In this document: positions 316 to 10,713 of the stretch, piece by piece
Numbering within the stretch: the first letter of the stretch is position 1
Layout: each line of letters starts with the position of its first letter
NCBI GenBank assembly: GCA_030630935.1
Contig: DAOVMD010000062.1
Location: 1-10,713, forward strand
Length of the DNA: 10,713 nt
Reading direction: 5' to 3'
DNA from: Candidatus Mcinerneyibacteriota bacterium
GTDB taxonomy: Bacteria > AUK180 > JAQVHJ01
The notes under the pieces: model-generated
Told to the model about the DNA's origin: nothing
Database searches by the model: none
What the model saw: the letters and a program-made list of their open reading frames with translations, nothing else
Program-made: the position numbers and the translations under genes

Positions 316-651
316 TTATTTAAAGCTGTTAATTGCGTCTTCGATACTCTCAAAAATCTCAAAAGCTTTATCAAGATGAGTTAGGTTGAATAGGGAAAGG
401 ATATCTTTACTAAGATTTGCAAGTTTGATTTTCCCACCGCCTTCAGTTACTTTCTTATTCTGAATAACCAGGATACCCAGTCCTGCACTATCAATATATT
501 TCATGTCAGCAAAATCAAGAACGAAATTTAATTTATCGTTATTTAATTCTTCTTTGATAGCTTCTTTTAGAACATGCCGGTTTTCGACAATGATTTCCCC
601 TGTAATTTTAAAAACAACAATTCCGTTAAAATTCTTCTTTGTAATCTCCAT
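316..651 (-). CDS. STAS-domain protein, anti-sigma factor antagonist type
   Basis: This 111-residue protein is a complete single STAS domain with no extra segment, the usual size for SpoIIAA/RsbV-type antagonists. The signature DMKYIDSAGLGILV spans residues 49-62. Ser55, in the Asp-Ser-Ala-Gly-Leu-Gly loop, matches the serine phosphorylated in SpoIIAA/RsbV. The family is cytoplasmic: the unphosphorylated form binds an RsbW-type kinase/anti-sigma partner and frees that partner's target. Here the obvious partners are the kinase-like and phosphatase domains encoded two genes upstream on the same strand; that pairing is inferred from context. The ATG at 651-649 has a strong AAGGGAG site 6 nt upstream, inside the 15-bp gap after the chemoreceptor-like gene. 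No sigma factor is visible, so the output could be a non-sigma target. The family call is firm; the pathway is not known. Confidence 0.93.
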   Translation of the reverse strand: MEITKKNFNGIVVFKITGEIIVENRHVLKEAIKEELNNDKLNFVLDFADMKYIDSAGLGILVIQNKKVTEGGGKIKLANLSKDILSLFNLTHLDKAFEIFESIEDAINSFK

Positions 652-666
652 GGTCTTCTCCCTTTT

Positions 667-2601
667 TTAAAGTCCTCTTTTAGTTTGATTTTTTGAGACA
701 CCGTTAGTTTTTGATTTTTTCGTTTCTTTTTTCACCGGTTCTGTAATTTTAAATTTATATAATGCACTTTTCAATTTTTGAAATTCGTTAAAGAGTTCTT
801 GAGCAATATCAGCCATTTCATTTGAGGAAGCAGCTTGTTCTTCAGTTGCGGCCGAAGTTTCTTCGGTATTTGCGGCATTTTCCTGAGCAATCTGAAGGAG
901 TTCATCATCAATCGCCAGTATGCTGCTTGAATCACTGCTTAACGTATCAGATAATGATCTTACTGCATCGATATTCCCGATAATAAATCCCAATTCACTA
1001 TTAATAATATGAAATGTATCGAGTACTTTCACAGAAATATTTCCAAGCCCTTCAGTTTTTGCTTTACCAATCTGCATAGTATTAACAACTTCTTCAATCT
1101 GTTCCTGGATATTTTTAATTGTATTTGCGATTTGATTATTCGCTTCACGTGTTTCAATGGCCAATTTACCAATCTCTTCTGCAACAACTGCAAAACCTCT
1201 TCCGCCTTCTCCAGCTCTTGAGGCTTCAATTGAAGCGTTGAGAGCAAGTAAATTAATCTGGCCGGAAAACCCTTTGATTTTCACAACGAATTTGCCAATT
1301 TCTTCTGATGATTTAATTAGTTCACTCATCAGAACATTTGAAGTATCCACGACTTCTACAAGTTCATCGATTGCATGAGCTACAATATTAATCTCATCAT
1401 TTCGATTGTTTAATTCCATGACCGTACTTTCACCTCTCGTGACTAGTTCAACAGTTTGAGCCTTAAGATCCTTAGCAAATTCAGAGATTTTCCGGATAAC
1501 GTCCGCAGCTTCTCTTGTTTTAAAAGCCTGATTTTCAATATTTGATGCGACTGAATTTGTGGTTGCAGCAATTGAATCAATTGAGGTACTCATTTCTTCA
1601 GATGATGCGGATAGGTTTCCTGCGATCTCAAGCATATTATTAAAAATACCAAAGATATGCTGTAATAAAATAACGGTAGAGAGAGCCATTTGGTTAAAAT
1701 GCTCAGCAAGGAAATCTACTTCTGAAGATGAATAGACATGTGCTCTCATATATAATTTACCTTCTGTTAATTCATACGAAAGTTTTTTCAGCTCATTAAT
1801 CGGATGAGTTATTGTTTGAGCGGTTAAAAAAGATAGGATTCCACCTAAGATTAGGCCTAATACTCCAACTCCAATTGCAAATAGGAGGATAGTGGTAAAG
1901 TGCTGTTCCAAGGAACCTGAGTTTGACGAGGCATGCCGTAAGATATCATAGGTTTTCTTTAAAATTAAAGTGCTTTCAAACAGAATGAAAATAAATAAAA
2001 TTATTGAATTTAGAATTATGATTTTTTTCCCTATATCAATTTTAATTATTTTCTTCTCATCTAAGACAGGTAATTTAAATCCCTGATTATTTTTTGCGAT
2101 ATACTTTGCAAATTCTTGAATCTTAATAAGTGGTTCTCTGAACATGGTTTCCATTCTCAAGTATGCCAGCAGAAAGAACAGGAGAGACCCCATTATTCCG
2201 CCAATTAAGAAAAATAAGAAGTCAATTATACTTACCTTTTGAAAGATAAACATATATAGTGAGATAGGAAGAGTTAATATGAATAGAGATACAAAGAGAA
2301 GAACCTGGCTATACTTAAACGGGAAATTAATTCCTTCAATATAGGCATTTTTCAAATGATGTTCTTCAATCTCATCGGGTTTTTTCATCTGAATAATTCC
2401 ATTGAAAGAAGGAGTAAAGCGCTGGTAGAAGATGAGTAATAAAATCAGACTAATAAAAAACATAATTACTACAGCAATGGAATAATGTAGTATTTGAAAT
2501 CCGGTAAATTCAATATTTACAAAGTAATAACCGGTTGCAAATATTATGCATAATAATCCAATTAACCCAACTTGAAGAAGAACTTTTTCCCTTAACTGCA
2601 T
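667..2601 (-). CDS. Six-transmembrane HAMP protein with methyl-accepting chemotaxis signalling domain
   Basis: 644 residues. The N-terminal half has about six hydrophobic segments (roughly 9-28, 38-58, 99-120, 126-148, 194-213, 236-260) with only short loops, so there is no classic periplasmic ligand domain; sensing may be within the membrane. A HAMP domain follows (about 261-315, with [19 protein letters not shown]). The rest is a long helical MCP signalling domain. Its hairpin tip at about 443-480 holds [20 protein letters not shown] and [15 protein letters not shown] methylation-type helix with [17 protein letters not shown] lies near 580-596. The tail is Lys-rich and lacks an NWETF-like CheR/CheB tether. 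No che genes are nearby. The start lies 2 bp after the stop of the phosphatase/ATPase gene, with AAGGAA 9 nt upstream, which implies translational coupling. It may feed the partner-switching proteins instead of, or as well as, a CheA complex; that is inference. Confidence 0.9.
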
Positions 2602-2603
2602 AT

Positions 2604-4991
2604 TTATATTTTCCTTGAGATTTTTTTAGTTATAGTAATTGAGTTTCCTGAGCTATTGAATCTTATATTATCGGCAATACCCATAATTAGATAAAGACCC
2701 CGCCCTGATTCAATATAAATTGTCTCAGGTGAGATGTTTTTATTGATAAATTCACTATAATCAAAACCTTCACCTTCATCAGTGATTTTAGCAGTAAAAG
2801 ATCCCGTAGTAATGGCAATATCTATGTTTACGAAGGACTCTAAATTGCTCTTATTACCATGTATTATAGCATTAATTATTGCTTCTGTCAAGAGTAATTT
2901 TAGGTTATAAATATCTTTTTCAAGGATCTTTTCTGATGAGAAAATTTCTTCAAATTCCGTGATTAAAGCTTTAATATTTTTCAGGTCACTTGATATTTCC
3001 CATGTCCTTTCAAAGAGAATCTCCGGTAATCGCTTCAGAACAACCAATGAAATATCATCCTTCATTTTCATATCGCCAACGAATGCAAGGTGAGAGTCAA
3101 TTACACTTGCACATAAATCATCAGCTGAAAGGAATTTGTTTTGATTAATTATATCAGTTAGACGATTTTTACCGAAGTTCTCATCAAATTTATTTCTATT
3201 ATCAGGAATTCCATCAGTGTACATAAATATGAAATCGCCCTTATCAAACGTCAGGGATTTCTCATCAAGATTAATATTATCGAAGATTCCAATGAGTGAG
3301 CCGGAAACTTTTAACTCAGAAATCTCATCAGATGAGAAGTCATAATAATACGGTTGAGTATGTCCACCATTTGAGTAGATAAATTCACCGGTTTTTGAAT
3401 TAAGAATCCCATAGAATATGGTAAGGTAATCTTCTTCAAGGATATATTTATTAATCTCCTGGTTAATTAGTTCCAGGGCTTTCTTTGGTGAGTTAATGTT
3501 ACGGAAGTAATTGAATACAAAACTTTTTACCATACTCATTACCATTGCAGCACCCACGCCATGTCCGGATATATCCGATATAATAATACCCATTTTATTA
3601 TTCCCAAGATCAATAAAGTCGTAATAATCCCCGCCGATCTGACGGGAAGGAATATATTGTGCCCCGAATTCGAAGTGATTGACTTTCGGATATTTCTCCG
3701 GGATAATCTTTATCTGGATATCATGTGCTAATTTCAGGTCTGTCTGGAATTTCAAATTGAATAGTTTTTGATTCTCAAAAAGGAGATTGTTTTCAATTGA
3801 TTGCGCGAATATATTTGATAATATATTCAATGTAGGAAGGAGAGTTTGAATTTTCTTGGGTAGATTAAAGAATGCTAACTTAATAAAACCGATTAATTTA
3901 TCAGGAACAAAAAGCGGGGAGTAAACCATTGACCGAATCTTTTTACCTTTAATAGTTTTATTAAGTGTGATTTTTGCATGCTGCACATCATTTATAAATA
4001 TTGAATCTCTAACCTGAACAATTTCTTTAATATAATCGTTACTGATAATGATATTATCTTTTCGTGTGAAATCAACTTTTAACGAACCGAATTCTTTAAT
4101 AGCACGATAGGTAATGTTATCATCATTTAACAGATAAATTTCAATATCACTATACGTAATGAAATTCTTGATTTTTTCAATAAATAAATTAAATAGTTCT
4201 TCAATATCCAGGATTGAATGGAGCTGATGTGTAATATCCAAAATTAATGAAAGTTCCTGGATTCGTGTATTCAAGTCTTTCTGAGTTGCTTTCTGTTTTT
4301 GAATAATTTTATTCATTACAATGTTTGTCTCTTCAATCTCTGTTTGTTGATACCGCATTTCATTCAGGATATCTTCAAGCTGTGTATCTTTTATCTTCAT
4401 TCTTCCAAGGATCTTTTTATTAGAATGAGAAAGGAAAATTGAAACTAAAGCGATTACAAATATAGAAGCAATGAAGATTGTACCATTATATAGTCTAATA
4501 AATGTAAGGGAATGTTCAAAATATCCAATCGCTATCATAGATAATACAATTGAAATTCCTAATAAAGAGAAGAAAATACCATCTTTTAATGAGTACCGTA
4601 AAGCGACGGAGAATACAAAAATATAAATGAAGATAAAAAATGGACTGTCTAACTTTCCTGTGAAAAATATAATTGCCCAGGTAACTATAATATCCAGAAA
4701 GAGTGTCAGATAATGAATGACAATATTTACTTTACCCATTCTTTTAACGAAGAACCAGATAAGAATATTATTAATGAAGTAAAATGCTCCAATCAATATA
4801 ATTGCATGTGAGATTCCTTCGGCACTATATATTTTTGTGATTATCCCAAGAAGATAAATAATAAAGAAACCCACGATCAAGAGTAATCGAGTTTTACACT
4901 CGCCAAGTTTAATGGAATATAACTCAGGTTTACTTAGGTTTATACTCGTAGAACTTTTTTGGGCTTCCTTTTCTTCTGATTTTCTTTTCAT
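2604..4991 (-). CDS. Membrane GAF - SpoIIE/PP2C phosphatase - RsbW-type ATPase fusion protein
   Basis: 795 residues, first gene of the leftward operon. After a charged N-terminus come about six membrane segments (about 34-54, 60-82, 90-111, 117-134, 138-157, 168-188), a coiled coil (about 198-248), a GAF-like domain (about 250-405), a SpoIIE-type PP2C domain (about 415-655) and a C-terminal HATPase_c domain (about 665-792). Phosphatase metal-site motifs look intact: GGDYYDF at 453-459 (Asp455), SDISGHG at 472-478 (Asp473), YTDG at 591-594 (Asp593) and KDD at 644-646. The ATPase domain keeps the N box (Glu703, Asn707, His711-Gly712-Asn713), the DEGEG box at 738-742 and the SGRGL box at 762-766, so ATP binding is plausible. 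RsbU/SpoIIE phosphatases dephosphorylate STAS serines and RsbW/SpoIIAB kinases phosphorylate them; here both activities may sit in one chain. The STAS protein two genes downstream is the likely substrate. The ribosome site is weak (GGAA, about 12 nt upstream). Confidence 0.93.
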
Positions 4992-5021
4992 AAACTAAAT
5001 ATTTTCCATATTATACCGTAA

Positions 5022-5050
5022 ATTATAACATAAAAAAGAAAAAAAAGCAA
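5022..5050 (-). promoter_or_regulatory. Minus-strand sigma70-type promoter for the signalling operon
   Basis: On the minus strand, TTGCTT (5050-5045) and a perfect TATAAT (5027-5022) are separated by 17 nt. TG one base before the -10 makes it an extended -10 (TGTTATAAT). The predicted start of transcription is near 5015, giving a leader of about 24 nt before the ATG at 4991. A second TATAAT lies 12 bp downstream (5015-5010) without a convincing -35. Confidence 0.72.
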
Positions 5051-5072
5051 CTTTTAATTAAGATAAAAGTTG
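5048..5072. promoter_or_regulatory. Perfect inverted repeat between divergent promoters, candidate operator
   Basis: CAACTTTTA (5048-5056), a 7-nt spacer ATTAAGA, and TAAAAGTTG (5064-5072) form a perfect 9+9 bp dyad centred on 5060. Its outer three bases on each side are the first three bases of the two opposing -35 boxes. A dimeric regulator bound here would cover both -35 elements and control both operons. The regulator is not in the window. The alternative is chance dyad symmetry in AT-rich DNA, helped by the TTG that both -35 boxes share. Confidence 0.55.
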
Positions 5073-5098
5073 ACATATCATAATTTTTTTGTTATAAT
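5070..5098 (+). promoter_or_regulatory. Consensus sigma70-type promoter with extended -10, plus strand
   Basis: TTGACA (5070-5075), a 17-nt spacer and TATAAT (5093-5098) match the sigma70 consensus exactly. TG at 5090-5091 makes an extended -10. The predicted start of transcription is near 5105, giving a leader of about 19 nt to the ATG at 5124. It should drive the BatD-like gene and the two ligase-like genes behind it. Confidence 0.85.
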
Positions 5099-5110
5099 TC
5101 CAATTAAGCA

Positions 5111-5123: not shown

Positions 5124-6173
5124 ATGAAGCAACTAAACTTTATCTCTCTTTTAGTGATTATATTATCTATACTAATCCTTTCGGGCAAGGGTCTAAAGCC
5201 ACATGCAGGCACTGATAAGGATCTGTTGAATAAATCTGTCCCGGTTAAAAGTTCTAAAGTTTCGGATTCAAAATCTGAATCTACAAAGCCCGGGGTTTCA
5301 AGCCAGAAAGATAAGATTTATGAAAATATCAAGATTAGTGCATCTGTTGAACCTGATATTGTTCCTGTAAACGGAAGATTTACTCTTAAAATTACTTTGA
5401 TAACCACCTGGGAGAGCTCAGGGTTTACTGCAACGAAAATTCTTCCGCCTAAACTTTCCTGGGCTCGAAATATTTCCAGCTACTCCAGAACTAACTATTC
5501 CACCAGTAAAGGGAAGATAGTTTTTATTAATCAGCAGACTTTTAAATATAAGGCGGGAAATATAGAAGGGGAGTTTACTATTCCACCGATTCCTGCAACA
5601 GTTAAGGATCCCAACACAGACAAATCATATACTGTTACAACAAATCCATTACCAATTAAAATTGTGAAAAGTTCGAAATCAATTCAAAAACCACCTGATC
5701 CTTATACCCGGAAGCCTTCTCGACTGCCGAATATCTGTCTTTATATTATAATAATTTTAATTCTATTGATAGTTGTGATAGTTCTCTTAATAATTTTAAA
5801 AGTATCGAAACGGCGTGGAGTTTCTACCGTTACTACAAAACAACCCCTCAATGATAAGGGTTATTACCTTCTTCAATTAGATGAATTATTTAAGAAGATT
5901 CCGGAAGATGACGATGAGAGATTTACTGATGAAGTTGATGAACTGATCAAGAAATGGATTTCGTTTACTTTCAATGTCGAAACGGAAGATTATTCCACTA
6001 AAGAGATTATCCTGAAACTTGAAAGCAGTGAAGCGGAATCTGAATTAATTGAAAGTTTAAGTAAATTTTTTGATATTGTTGATAAAGTGAAATATGCAAA
6101 TCAGGATTTGGACACCACCGAACGCGAAGATTTTTATCAACTTGCCAGGAATATTATTAATATGGGTTCCTAA
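5124..6173 (+). CDS. BatD-like membrane protein (Ig-like domain, one TM helix, cytoplasmic helical tail)
   Basis: 349 residues from ATG 5124. A signal peptide or anchor (about 5-20) is followed by a Ser/Lys-rich linker (about 25-65). A beta-rich Ig-like domain (about 66-182) then shows the BatD pattern: VEPDIVPVNGRFTLKI near 75-90, and TFKYKAGNIEGEFTIPP near 139-155, followed by strands ending in NPLPIKIV. One transmembrane helix (about 203-226) and basic residues lead to a helical tail (about 245-349) resembling the C-terminus of BatD/DUF4381-type proteins. Typical BatD proteins are longer, with several such domains, and lie beside batA/batB and a MoxR ATPase; none of those genes is here. 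It instead opens an operon with two ligase-like genes, 3 bp before the next ATG. A periplasmic envelope role is inferred from topology and context. Family call moderate, function unknown. Confidence 0.68.
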   Translation: MKQLNFISLLVIILSILILSGKGLKPHAGTDKDLLNKSVPVKSSKVSDSKSESTKPGVSSQKDKIYENIKISASVEPDIVPVNGRFTLKITLITTWESSGFTATKILPPKLSWARNISSYSRTNYSTSKGKIVFINQQTFKYKAGNIEGEFTIPPIPATVKDPNTDKSYTVTTNPLPIKIVKSSKSIQKPPDPYTRKPSRLPNICLYIIIILILLIVVIVLLIILKVSKRRGVSTVTTKQPLNDKGYYLLQLDELFKKIPEDDDERFTDEVDELIKKWISFTFNVETEDYSTKEIILKLESSEAESELIESLSKFFDIVDKVKYANQDLDTTEREDFYQLARNIINMGS

Positions 6174-6176
6174 TTA

Positions 6177-8255
6177 ATGAACCGAAATGATAAATTCCTA
6201 AATATAATATTCAACCTGATTATCTTTATTGTGCCTGTAATATTTTATACGGGAGCCAATAACACAATTTTAATAAAGTATCCTGTTTTTATTATACTGC
6301 TTTCTGCTTTCTTTTTTGTTTATATGATGAGGAAAAAAACAATTGTCTTTGAGAAGGTTTCCGGTTCCTATAAATATTTAATGCCTATGATAATTTACAT
6401 ACTTTTGATTATGATATCAAGTGTGTTTAGAGTACAAAGAACCTGGCATCTCTCTTTTGTTTGGTTTATGAAGGAATTTTCACTTGCGATACTTATGTTA
6501 TTGATATTTGAAAATTTCTCAAGATTAAAACTTAAATATATTGTAAATACATTTATAATTATGGTCTTTGTGATCTGCTCCTATGGTCTGCTTCAGAAAT
6601 TTGGTCTTGATTTCTTTGATTGGCAGCAGTTTGGAACAAGAAGAATAATCTCCAGCTTTGCAAATCCAAACCTGTTTTCTGCATTCCTGGTTGGAACTCT
6701 ACCAATTGTACTATGGAAGATAGTTAATATAAAAGATGTAAAGGGGACTTTAACCTTTAAAAAAATAAGGTTTTTTGATATCATAACAATCATTGGTTTC
6801 TTCCTGAGTATATCAGCAATTTTTCTCACTCAAACAAGAGCTGGTTTAATTGCTTTAGCCGTTGGCGGAGTTATATTGTTAATCTCGAATTATTTTCTGA
6901 AGGGAAAACTATTTAAATTTAAAAAAGTAAAACCATTAATAATTCTAATTCTCGTTTTTTTTGTGATAATACTTATAGTAAAAAAAGATATAATTCTAAC
7001 TCCGGTTTCACGGTTAGTAAATGTAAGTCTATCACAGACAAAGAGTACAGATTTTAGAACACTTGCGTATCCTTCTGTTCTAAAAGGAGTGAAGGATAAT
7101 GTTTTTACGGGTGTAAGTCCGGGAAACTTTTTTAATTATTTTCCATTATATAAATCAAATGATTTCCTTAGGAACTTTCCATCTGATCAGATAGTTGTTA
7201 TGCATGCACATTCGGAGTTCTTTGAAGTTGCATTTGAGTTGGGAATCGTAGGATTGATACTGTTTCTTTGGATGATATTTTTTATAATTAAGTCCGGGTA
7301 TAGAGATCAAAATCCATTTAAAATATTTCTTACGATTAGTTTTATTATGCTCCTTATAACAAATCTGTTCAGTGTTAATATGCGGTATTTCCCTTCCAGG
7401 TTCTTATTCTATACACTTGCGGGTTTAATTATCGGTAATATAAAAGTGAATATTAATAATAAAAAACCTGATCGTAAAGGATGGCTTCGTATAATCCCCG
7501 TAATCTTAATTTTAATATGGGGAATATTTATTTCTTTCATGGAATTTAAATCGGATATTTTATTACGGGCAGGTAATCGGGAACAATATTTTAAGCGTCA
7601 GAATAATGCACTTGAAAAATATACTGCTGCCTCGGTCACTTTTTCCAGCAATCATTTCGCCGGATATAATATGATTAATCTTGCGTATATTTTAAAGGAT
7701 TATAATAAAAACTTTCTTCTGAGATTAAGGTTATTTAATGAGGAGTTTCCATATTTTAAGGATACACATCTGATCACAGCAAGGATATATACAGACCTTG
7801 AAGACTTTGAGAAAGCAGAAGCTGAGTTTATAATTGAGGAATCAATTTCTACATATACTGAAACACTTTATTCTGATTGGGGATATATGAAGTTCCAGGA
7901 GATTATGAAAACTGATGGGGTTAAAGGTATTAAGCGTAGGAAATCTGAAATTTTAAAAATTTATAAAAAAGGTCTTGATATTAACCCCGGAAATGTGGTA
8001 TTATTAGATAACACCGGTAATTTATATACTTTACTCGGTAATTACCAGGAAGCATTAATGCATTTTGAAAAGGCTTTTACGATTAAGAACGATGATTACA
8101 GATTAATTGCTAAGATCATTGATATAAAAATTAAATTAGCTGAGTATAAAGATGCGAATGATTTGTTTCTGAAGTACAATGATAAAATTAGTAAAGAATC
8201 AAGATACAACATTTATACGAAGTTAAAACAACATGGATTTGATAAGAATGAATGA
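6177..8255 (+). CDS. O-antigen ligase/Wzy-type polytopic membrane protein with C-terminal TPR domain (first copy)
   Basis: 692 residues. About 12 hydrophobic segments fill residues 8-455, followed by a soluble helical region (about 460-690). Family marks of the O-antigen ligase (Wzy_C, PF04932) group are FANPNLFSAFL (161-171), TQTRAGLIAL (218-227), GVSPGNFFNYFPLY (312-325) in the large extracytoplasmic loop, and HAHSEFFEVAFELGIVGL (343-360). Members join or polymerise lipid-linked glycans, or transfer sugars to protein, outside the inner membrane; the substrate here cannot be read. The tail carries TPR-like units, clearest at about 604-637 (NVVLLDNTGNLYTLLGNYQE onward). The ATG lies 3 bp after the upstream stop with only a weak GGG 10 nt before it, so translation is probably coupled. 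It shares a distinctive FSVNMRY motif (398-404) with the next gene, which marks the two as paralogues. Confidence 0.87.
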   Translation: MNRNDKFLNIIFNLIIFIVPVIFYTGANNTILIKYPVFIILLSAFFFVYMMRKKTIVFEKVSGSYKYLMPMIIYILLIMISSVFRVQRTWHLSFVWFMKEFSLAILMLLIFENFSRLKLKYIVNTFIIMVFVICSYGLLQKFGLDFFDWQQFGTRRIISSFANPNLFSAFLVGTLPIVLWKIVNIKDVKGTLTFKKIRFFDIITIIGFFLSISAIFLTQTRAGLIALAVGGVILLISNYFLKGKLFKFKKVKPLIILILVFFVIILIVKKDIILTPVSRLVNVSLSQTKSTDFRTLAYPSVLKGVKDNVFTGVSPGNFFNYFPLYKSNDFLRNFPSDQIVVMHAHSEFFEVAFELGIVGLILFLWMIFFIIKSGYRDQNPFKIFLTISFIMLLITNLFSVNMRYFPSRFLFYTLAGLIIGNIKVNINNKKPDRKGWLRIIPVILILIWGIFISFMEFKSDILLRAGNREQYFKRQNNALEKYTAASVTFSSNHFAGYNMINLAYILKDYNKNFLLRLRLFNEEFPYFKDTHLITARIYTDLEDFEKAEAEFIIEESISTYTETLYSDWGYMKFQEIMKTDGVKGIKRRKSEILKIYKKGLDINPGNVVLLDNTGNLYTLLGNYQEALMHFEKAFTIKNDDYRLIAKIIDIKIKLAEYKDANDLFLKYNDKISKESRYNIYTKLKQHGFDKNE

Positions 8256-10545
8256 AAAATATTTCAAATATTTCTATATTGGAGTACTCTTCATAATATT
8301 TACTGCGGTTACAGTTTTGCTCTCACCAAAGTTCTATAATATTGTAGTTATAAAAGATACCGTATTATTTATTGGGATGGCTATAATATTTATTTTAACT
8401 GCTGCCGGTTTACATTTAGGAAAAATAAAATTAACCCTCTCCAAATTTGATGCGCCACTTGGTGTTTTCCTGATAATAAATATAATTTCATTTATATTTT
8501 CATCTTCAAAGTTCTATTCGTTTTATTACCTATCAGTTTGGATTTCTTATTTTATTGTATTTTTCTATATTAGAATAGTTTTTGACAGTAAGGAATTTAT
8601 AAAGCATTTTCTTGTGATCATTATTTCCATAACATTCTTTATTTCATTTTATGGTATTTTACTTCAGAATGGAACTGATATATTAAAGTTTTATGGGGAC
8701 TTGGATTCAATATCACGAACACCATCAACAATGGGGAATCCAAATTTCTTCGCTGGGTTTTTAATAATAGCTCTCTTTATAATAGTTTCTTCCATTTTTT
8801 ATTTTAAAAAGAATTATATGAAACTATTCTCAGGGATTACAGCAGTTTTAGTTTTATATTCAATTTTGTTAACAAGAACGCGAGCTGCATTTATCGGGTT
8901 AGCAGTTGGAATCATGATATTCACAATCTTATTAATATTAAAGTTCTTGTGGGATAAAGAGTTAATGAAACGCTTCCCATCCTTCTTTAAATACATCGGT
9001 ACATCAGTGGTTGTCTTACTGATTTTGGTAATTTTAATTTCTCCCAGGGGTTATTGGAAGCGATTAATTGCTGCAACAAATTTAAAAGCTATTTCAACAA
9101 CTATGTTCAGGATTTATACCTGGAAATCAACCTTGAAAATAATTAAGGATAACCCCATTTTAGGTTCCGGGGTAGGGACATTCAGAGTGGAATATCCATC
9201 CAGAAAGAGTAAAAGAATCTTTATGTTTGAAGAACATCATAATGCCGAGACTATTCATGCACATAACGAATTTTTAGAGGTTGCTTCAGACTCCGGAATA
9301 TTGGGTGTAATCGGATTCTTCTGGATACTTTTAACATTGGTTTTTATTTTCTTCAGAATAATTATTAAATTAAAGTCATTAGAAAATTATATATTATTGC
9401 TGGGAATATTCTCATCAATTTTTGCGTCACTGGCAAATAACTTTTTCTCGGTCAATATGAGATATACATCATCAGGTTTTGCATTTTGGATTATACTCGG
9501 TTTCTTCTTTGCTGTTCTATTACCTATTATTACGAAGAATAAGGATATAAAAGGGTTTGGTAACTTTAAACAAAAACTTTCAATTTCATTATTGATTATT
9601 TCTTTAATCTGGGGTGCAATTATTATTCCATTTGCAATCAGGAATTATAAATCAGATAAAGTTCTGAAGTTAGCAGTTGAATATTCGAAGGGCGGAGTAA
9701 GCATGAATATGCAAGGTAAAGTGTTATCGGCTATGTTCTTTTATAAAAAAGCCCGGGATTATTATTTTGAGTCATTAAAATATCAGAAAAATAATGTGAT
9801 CGCTAATTATTTTATGGGTAACCTGTGCCAGGACCTTGGGTCTTTAGTCAGGAATAAAAAAAGAATTGAAAATGATAAAGTAAAAATTAAATTAGAAATT
9901 AAAAGACTTAAATCAATTGCAGATAAAGAACCTTCAAATTCATATAATCGACGTGAGTTAGAGAATAAAATCAAAGAGCTTCGTCAAGCACTTCGGAGAG
10001 CAGATATGGATCTTGAGAATATTGGAAGCTCAAAAAAACTTTATGAAAGTGCAGTTATGTATTATAATATAGTAATTAAGAATTCCCCCAATTATGTCCA
10101 GGTTCATTACCATAAAGGTCGGGCTTTTAAGGAATTGGGATTATATAAAGAAGCAAAACAAGAATTCGAACTTTACAGAAAACAAAATCCGGTCGATTTT
10201 GAAAGCTATTTCATACTTGCCACTCTATATAAAAAATTAGGTGATATATTTAAGGTGAGTGCTTTACGGGAGGAATTATTAACTGAAATCGATGCGGATC
10301 TAGAATTATTTCCATCATACCTGCCACTATATTTTTCTTTGTTTAAAATTTATGTCAATGAAAAGAACAATGAAAAAGCTGAAGAATCTCTATTGAGAAT
10401 TTTTGAACTGCCCGATATTTATCATAGCAAAAGTTTTCAGCAAGCGATTCGATTCCTTTATTCTTTTTACTTCAGAACAAATCAACAAGAAAAGATAGTG
10501 AAATTCAGGAAGAAATTCCTGATAAATTCTTCAAAAATCAACTAA
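8248..10545 (+). CDS. O-antigen ligase/Wzy-type polytopic membrane protein with C-terminal TPR domain (second copy)
   Basis: 765 residues from ATG 8248, overlapping the previous gene by 8 bp. An in-frame ATG at 8233 would add five residues. I prefer 8248 because it gives an MN-start like the paralogue's and has GGA 10 nt upstream, but this is not decisive. About 12 hydrophobic segments (8-463) carry the ligase marks MGNPNFFAGFL (162-172), TRTRAAFIGL (209-218), GSGVGTFRVEYPS (306-318) and HAHNEFLEVASDSGILGV (337-354), plus FSVNMRY (400-406). The soluble tail holds TPR-like repeats at about 487-525 and 595-670, with weaker helical pairs to 755. Between them (about 530-592) is a Lys/Glu/Arg-rich stretch predicted to form a coiled-coil hairpin, absent from the first copy. 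The likely role is glycan ligation or polymerisation at the periplasmic face; the substrate is unknown. It is the last gene of the visible rightward operon. Confidence 0.87.
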   Translation: MNEKYFKYFYIGVLFIIFTAVTVLLSPKFYNIVVIKDTVLFIGMAIIFILTAAGLHLGKIKLTLSKFDAPLGVFLIINIISFIFSSSKFYSFYYLSVWISYFIVFFYIRIVFDSKEFIKHFLVIIISITFFISFYGILLQNGTDILKFYGDLDSISRTPSTMGNPNFFAGFLIIALFIIVSSIFYFKKNYMKLFSGITAVLVLYSILLTRTRAAFIGLAVGIMIFTILLILKFLWDKELMKRFPSFFKYIGTSVVVLLILVILISPRGYWKRLIAATNLKAISTTMFRIYTWKSTLKIIKDNPILGSGVGTFRVEYPSRKSKRIFMFEEHHNAETIHAHNEFLEVASDSGILGVIGFFWILLTLVFIFFRIIIKLKSLENYILLLGIFSSIFASLANNFFSVNMRYTSSGFAFWIILGFFFAVLLPIITKNKDIKGFGNFKQKLSISLLIISLIWGAIIIPFAIRNYKSDKVLKLAVEYSKGGVSMNMQGKVLSAMFFYKKARDYYFESLKYQKNNVIANYFMGNLCQDLGSLVRNKKRIENDKVKIKLEIKRLKSIADKEPSNSYNRRELENKIKELRQALRRADMDLENIGSSKKLYESAVMYYNIVIKNSPNYVQVHYHKGRAFKELGLYKEAKQEFELYRKQNPVDFESYFILATLYKKLGDIFKVSALREELLTEIDADLELFPSYLPLYFSLFKIYVNEKNNEKAEESLLRIFELPDIYHSKSFQQAIRFLYSFYFRTNQQEKIVKFRKKFLINSSKIN

Positions 10546-10580
10546 TACATATATTAGAGGTTGTCCGGTAAAGTCATTTT

Positions 10581-10651
10581 GTCATTGCGAGAAATGAGTG
10601 AAGTGAATGACGAAGCAATCTCGTGTCATTCGAAGACAAACGAATTGTTTC
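10581..10651. repeat. Decayed dispersed-repeat copy of the GTCATTGCGAG...GAAGCAATCTC type
   Basis: Just after the last gene, GTCATTGCGAG (10581-10591) is followed by AATGAC (10606-10611), then GAAGCAATCTCG (10612-10623) and an imperfect inverted copy, CGAATTGTTTC (10641-10651). GTCATT also recurs at 10573 and 10625. From memory, intact elements with these words form long inverted repeats scattered in many environmental bacterial genomes. Here the right arm has diverged, so this looks like an old copy. No reading frame is present. It is clearly less AT-rich than the flanking genes. Confidence 0.6.
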
Positions 10652-10663
10652 CCAAACGGTGTA

Positions 10664-10685
10664 GGGGCGACCGGCCGGGCTCCCT
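10664..10685. repeat. Imperfect GC-rich palindrome around CCGGCCGG, probable second repeat unit
   Basis: GGGGCGA, then CCGGCCGG (10671-10678), then GCTCCCT form a palindrome with two mismatches and one G-T pair. It resembles a degraded GTAGGGGCGACCGGCC-type repeat in which the right arm would have been the exact complement. It stands out as GC-rich in an AT-rich window and abuts the preceding repeat, so it may be part of the same composite element. It lacks a following T-run, so it is not called a terminator. Confidence 0.5.
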
Positions 10686-10713
10686 GATTGTTATTAATAA
10701 TCCTCCCGGATGA

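Follow-up and report, generated by a model that had tools for sequence, protein, structure and literature searches.

The stretch of DNA analysed here (the window, 10 713 nt) carries two divergent operons, one devoted to signalling and the other to envelope glycans. Six genes were recognized:

316–651, minus strand: STAS anti-sigma-factor antagonist
667–2601, minus strand: protein with HAMP and MCP signalling domains
2604–4991, minus strand: fusion of a SpoIIE phosphatase with an RsbW-like HATPase, first gene of the signalling operon
5124–6173, plus strand: BatD-like membrane protein (weak match, just below the Pfam cut-off), with ATG at 5124 and AAGGAAG upstream
6177–8255, plus strand: O-antigen ligase/polymerase-like (Wzy_C) protein with TPRs
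8233–10545, plus strand: second Wzy_C protein with TPRs

The minus-strand genes (316–4991) constitute a partner-switching set, apparently as a single operon, and their order is kept in G001, a relative described below. As far as the contigs reach, no recognized DNA-binding domain was present among the six products of both operons; the contig ends on both sides of the locus, which limits the view of neighbouring genes. At the right-hand contig end, positions 10560–10713 form a repeat-like tail (ATTGCGAG...GACGAAGCAATCTC) that among the fetched loci occurred only here; this tail is possibly the reason why the assembly stopped.

The intergenic region contains two promoters placed back to back:

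5022–5027, minus strand: −10 box TATAAT of the signalling operon, in the extended form TGTTATAATT (5030–5021), with 10/10 bases the same in G001
5045–5050, minus strand: weak −35 box TTGCTT, 17 nt from the −10 box; TTGATT in G001
5070–5075, plus strand: −35 box TTGACA, 17 nt from the −10 box; found in G001 too
5093–5098, plus strand: −10 box TATAAT of the BatD/Wzy operon, in the extended form TGTTATAATT (5090–5099); kept in G001

The plus promoter is of sigma-70 type; in the promoter scan it matched the consensus at 12 of 12 positions, with a TG-extended −10 box. Downstream of it come AAGGAAG and then the ATG at 5124; the TTG at 5070, given as the start of the BatD-like gene in the list of open reading frames, falls within the promoter itself. 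The minus promoter precedes the fusion gene that starts at 4991. Its −35 box agrees with the consensus at three of six positions, under the threshold of the promoter scan; the box in G001 agrees at four of six. The gap between the −35 boxes is 19 bp (17 bp in G001), the separate −10 boxes span 77 bp end to end, and transcription is predicted to start near 5015 on the minus strand and near 5105 on the plus strand, ∼90 bp apart.

To place these promoters against the background of their own genome (G000), the pattern TTGACA-N16-18-TATAAT was counted genome-wide: there were 192 matches, compared with 3 for the control. The promoter statistics below refer to the 93–94 perfect promoters retrieved out of these 192. 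A TG-extended −10 box is common in this set (40/93). Only one other close back-to-back pair matched the same pattern, at C138:7255–7331 (L090 and L121); it has the same 77-bp span and the same 19-bp gap between −35 boxes and, by eye, lacks a comparable perfect dyad.

The stretch from one −35 box of the present pair to the other holds the following elements, none of which is assigned to a strand:

5048–5056: left dyad arm CAACTTTTA; its left half CAACTTTTAATTAA is the same in G001
5057–5063: 7-nt centre ATTAAGA; in G001 the block is shorter by 2 bp and reads CAACTTTT-AATTAAA-AAAAGTTG
5064–5072: right dyad arm TAAAAGTTG; AAAAGTTG is the same in G001
5051–5069: AT-rich block of 19 bp, the upstream region common to both promoters

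Arms and centre form a perfect 9+9 bp dyad, CAACTTTTA-ATTAAGA-TAAAAGTTG, at 5048–5072, which is centred on 5060 and contains the TTG of both −35 boxes. The coordinates, 17-nt spacers, −10 boxes, dyad and centre given in the preliminary description of this DNA were all exact to the base. That description also made a point of the centre shared by the dyad, the −35 pair and the −10 pair. The position is correct; it does not count as extra evidence, however, since any layout with a TTG in each arm and 17 nt in each spacer must have a common centre, and 17 nt is the usual spacing in this genome (82/93 perfect promoters). Nor does the mirror symmetry reach through the spacers to a degree beyond chance (11 of 17 pairs, P 0.17).

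We considered whether the arms could be a by-product of the general promoter consensus and ruled this out, in agreement with the preliminary description, which held that the arms exceed the consensus. Each arm adds six paired bases beyond its TTG, AAAAGTTGACA has only five copies in the genome versus the 192 promoter-like matches, and the base preceding TTGACA is usually C (61/93), not G. When the promoter elements were held fixed and the rest was shuffled, at least six further paired bases beyond both TTGs appeared in 0.25% of trials (P ∼0.0025). A less conditional test, asking for some perfect dyad of at least 9 bp anywhere in the shuffled intergenic region, gave 7.5% (149/2000). Dyads of at least 9 bp touching the −35 box were seen in 3 of the 93 perfect promoters, the present one included; therefore, the dyad alone is unusual, yet not unique in kind. 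A role as terminator or leader RNA structure was rejected, the dyad being upstream of both predicted starts and the terminator scan having no match there.

Several other promoters of G000 were seen to carry palindromes of their own. The perfect promoter L055 (C21:216) has a stronger dyad over its −35 box, TTTTGTCAAGAAGTACTTGACAAAA (10+10, centre 5). In both L048 (C9:42) and L056 (C22:1528) the palindrome GGTTAAC-N3-GTTAACC is situated just upstream of TTGACA, and the two make a possible small regulon. At L067 (C43:6585), a palindrome TGACTGACTGGTCAGTCA shortly past the −10 box resembles a TetR-type autoregulatory operator.

Conservation could be followed into one relative, G001, which belongs to the same family as G000 and to a different genus (contig JAQVHJ010000120 of JAQVHJ, isolate STE_202). 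There the SpoIIE fusion (68–69% identical) and the BatD-like protein (39%) are encoded in the same divergent arrangement, and the intergenic alignment showed that the two −10 boxes in their extended form, the 17-nt length of each spacer, TTGACA and CAACTTTTAATTAA...AAAAGTTGACA are all kept. The preliminary description had proposed to look for loss of the dyad in relatives that keep both promoters; as G001 keeps both promoters together with the dyad core, its claim was not refuted. Outside the TTGs, the ten arm bases CTTTT and AAAAG all recur in G001 (10 of 10), versus 62% of positions in spacers and leaders (P ∼0.008). For the 19-bp block including the centre, 16 of 19 positions are the same (P 0.03–0.05), and the non-symmetric AATTAA of the centre is likewise kept. 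Since the whole block with its centre is conserved, conservation is a weak test here and does not single out the arms.

The half-sites in G001 lie 2 bp closer to each other, each half staying fixed relative to its own promoter. A centre shorter by 2 bp rotates the half-sites by ∼70 degrees, which is awkward for a rigid dimer. At the outer edge, T replaces G in G001 and extends the dyad to TCAACTTTT/AAAAGTTGA; thus, a 9+9 dyad with a 7-nt centre is found in both genomes, although its register in G001 differs from that of CAACTTTTA/TAAAAGTTG in G000.

The class comprises seven genomes, and besides G000 the gene pair was present only in G001, so the number of genomes behind the conservation is two. 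No other relative with the gene pair came up among 84 980 species genomes; the scan gave the same JAQVHJ record and otherwise distant SpoIIE proteins. In the classmates with a readable upstream region, the BatD-like and Wzy genes follow other neighbours, and these classmates therefore cannot test the site.

Copies of the site were sought elsewhere. G000 and G001 each have a single match to the exact pattern CAACTTTT-N3..15-AAAAGTTG, at the present locus in either case; in the five classmates there was none, and reversed-pattern controls gave none either. Among near matches to the dyad in G000 (up to 3 mismatches) whose flanks were inspected, none lay at a promoter and most looked coding; a 23-bp form of the dyad with up to 2 mismatches was rarer than its control. 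One of the five genomic copies of AAAAGTTGACA, at C303:4671, belongs by eye to a promoter (17 nt from TAAAAT) and has no second half-site; three others are, by inspection, in coding sequence. An operator serving a multi-site regulon was accordingly rejected, no second operator having been found in the genome, and a wider regulon, for which the preliminary description had proposed a genome search, was not borne out.

The sequence itself makes clear that there are two promoters and a dyad, and that another genus has kept both along with the gene pair. Our tentative explanation, to which we give somewhat less than even chances, is that these are conserved back-to-back vegetative promoters, mutually exclusive for polymerase, which share an operator-like site over both −35 regions. 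Judging from the geometry, polymerase on one promoter would exclude polymerase from the other, and the operons would therefore compete. With less certainty than this competition, the dyad may be regarded as a candidate operator at which a dimeric DNA-binding protein would cover both −35 boxes. Such a regulator, its gene presumably not beside the site, could switch both operons, the partner-switching one for signalling and the one for glycans, at the same time; repression would be the simplest way.

The dyad is probably a control site common to both operons, of a general type that is well known. With no near match at other promoters and no adjacent DNA-binding protein, the regulon idea fails and the idea of one dimeric regulator at the dyad is only plausible. 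A more specific version appears doubtful to us, namely that a dedicated, remotely encoded regulator with one operator per genome couples the SpoIIE/RsbW-type and envelope-glycan operons and tolerates the 2-bp change in spacing. If the dyad is an operator, a partner-switching signalling module would be tied to the synthesis of envelope glycans in a lineage represented here by assembled sequence alone, and the locus would be a small system, open to testing, in which one control site governs promoters that exclude each other.

A close rival to the operator, and a quite possible one, is a shared UP element with no dedicated regulator: the 19-bp block, which covers roughly −37 to −58 relative to either promoter, would be bound by the alpha CTDs of polymerase for whichever promoter is engaged. 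The mirror image would then reflect a shared requirement of the two promoters for AT-rich sequence of the same kind immediately upstream of TTG. Binding of the alpha CTD to UP elements at −37 to −58 is established (PMC2613000). Conservation is in favour of this explanation: AATTAA in the centre equals the arms in conservation, and the halves hold their places relative to their own promoters when the length of the centre shifts, so a UP element would appear to account for the 2-bp shift and the conserved centre no less well than a rigid dimer would. The weak minus −35 box would also profit most from UP contacts.

The UP consensus is general knowledge in the form of a 14-position string, and scored with it the block reaches 10/14 for the plus promoter and 9/14 for the minus promoter, values in the upper part of the distribution and not exceptional. 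Sorted by score, the plus promoter comes 10th among 94 and shares its value of 10 with others; scores this high are reached by a dozen further promoters of G000, however, and most promoters of this genome have no such dyad. Furthermore, a UP element needs neither perfect 9+9 symmetry nor any G or C, and leaves the conserved C5051 and G5069 unexplained. A literature search for back-to-back promoters with a common UP element found none.

One could also suppose that the back-to-back placing of two ordinary promoters is accidental, and their extra pairing a coincidence in AT-rich DNA that has diverged little in G001. The 7.5% of intergenic shuffles with a perfect dyad of this length, the marginal significance of block conservation relative to its surroundings (P 0.03–0.05) and the chance-level symmetry of the spacers all agree with such a coincidence. 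We take it seriously as a rival and nevertheless think it unlikely, given arms at the exact place (P ∼0.0025), the preservation of all ten arm bases across genera whose SpoIIE and BatD-like proteins have diverged to the extent given above, and the single copy of the exact dyad in both genomes. Least probable by far are independent half-sites, where a monomeric or tandem activator or repressor would read TAAAAGTTGA at each promoter with spacing free: the 2-bp change with each half fixed to its own promoter and the lone AAAAGTTGACA at C303:4671 would suit it, but the three further copies appear coding and a single-copy pair is unlike a monomer regulon.

The candidate operator can be compared with several known systems. 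At the biotin operator of E. coli, the dimeric repressor BirA, encoded elsewhere, acts at one palindrome between the promoters of bioA and bioBFCD. The layout is a textbook likeness to the present one; the operator sequence is unrelated, and the palindrome is larger than here. Divergent promoters overlapping one compact operator region, as at our locus, are also found at tetA/tetR of Tn10 (PMC4788846) and at the CarH operators of myxobacteria (PMC9304148), and in both systems one bound protein can act on both promoters. Still, tetR is encoded at its own locus and has two tandem operators (PMC4788846), whereas here there is one inverted repeat and no regulator gene was seen in either operon; the CarH sites are direct repeats (PMC9304148), in contrast to the single perfect inverted repeat here.

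The bidirectional promoters described by Warman and Grainger (PMC12825309) are alike in their pseudo-symmetric DNA, divergent transcription and expected exclusive binding of polymerase; in E. coli, competition was measured when one direction was strongly activated (PMC12825309). Those promoters use one shared symmetric −10 element, and their starts are mostly 18, 10 or 23 bp apart (PMC12825309). With a −10 box for each direction, the two together spanning 77 bp, and starts ∼90 bp apart, the geometry of the present locus does not fit a bidirectional promoter with a shared −10 element, which we rejected. What the locus has in common with UP elements (PMC2613000) is AT-rich DNA suitably spaced from each −35 box; the UP consensus has no perfect dyad and no conserved G or C, whereas the site described here has both. 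The architecture itself is already well known, and the locus is probably a new example of it.
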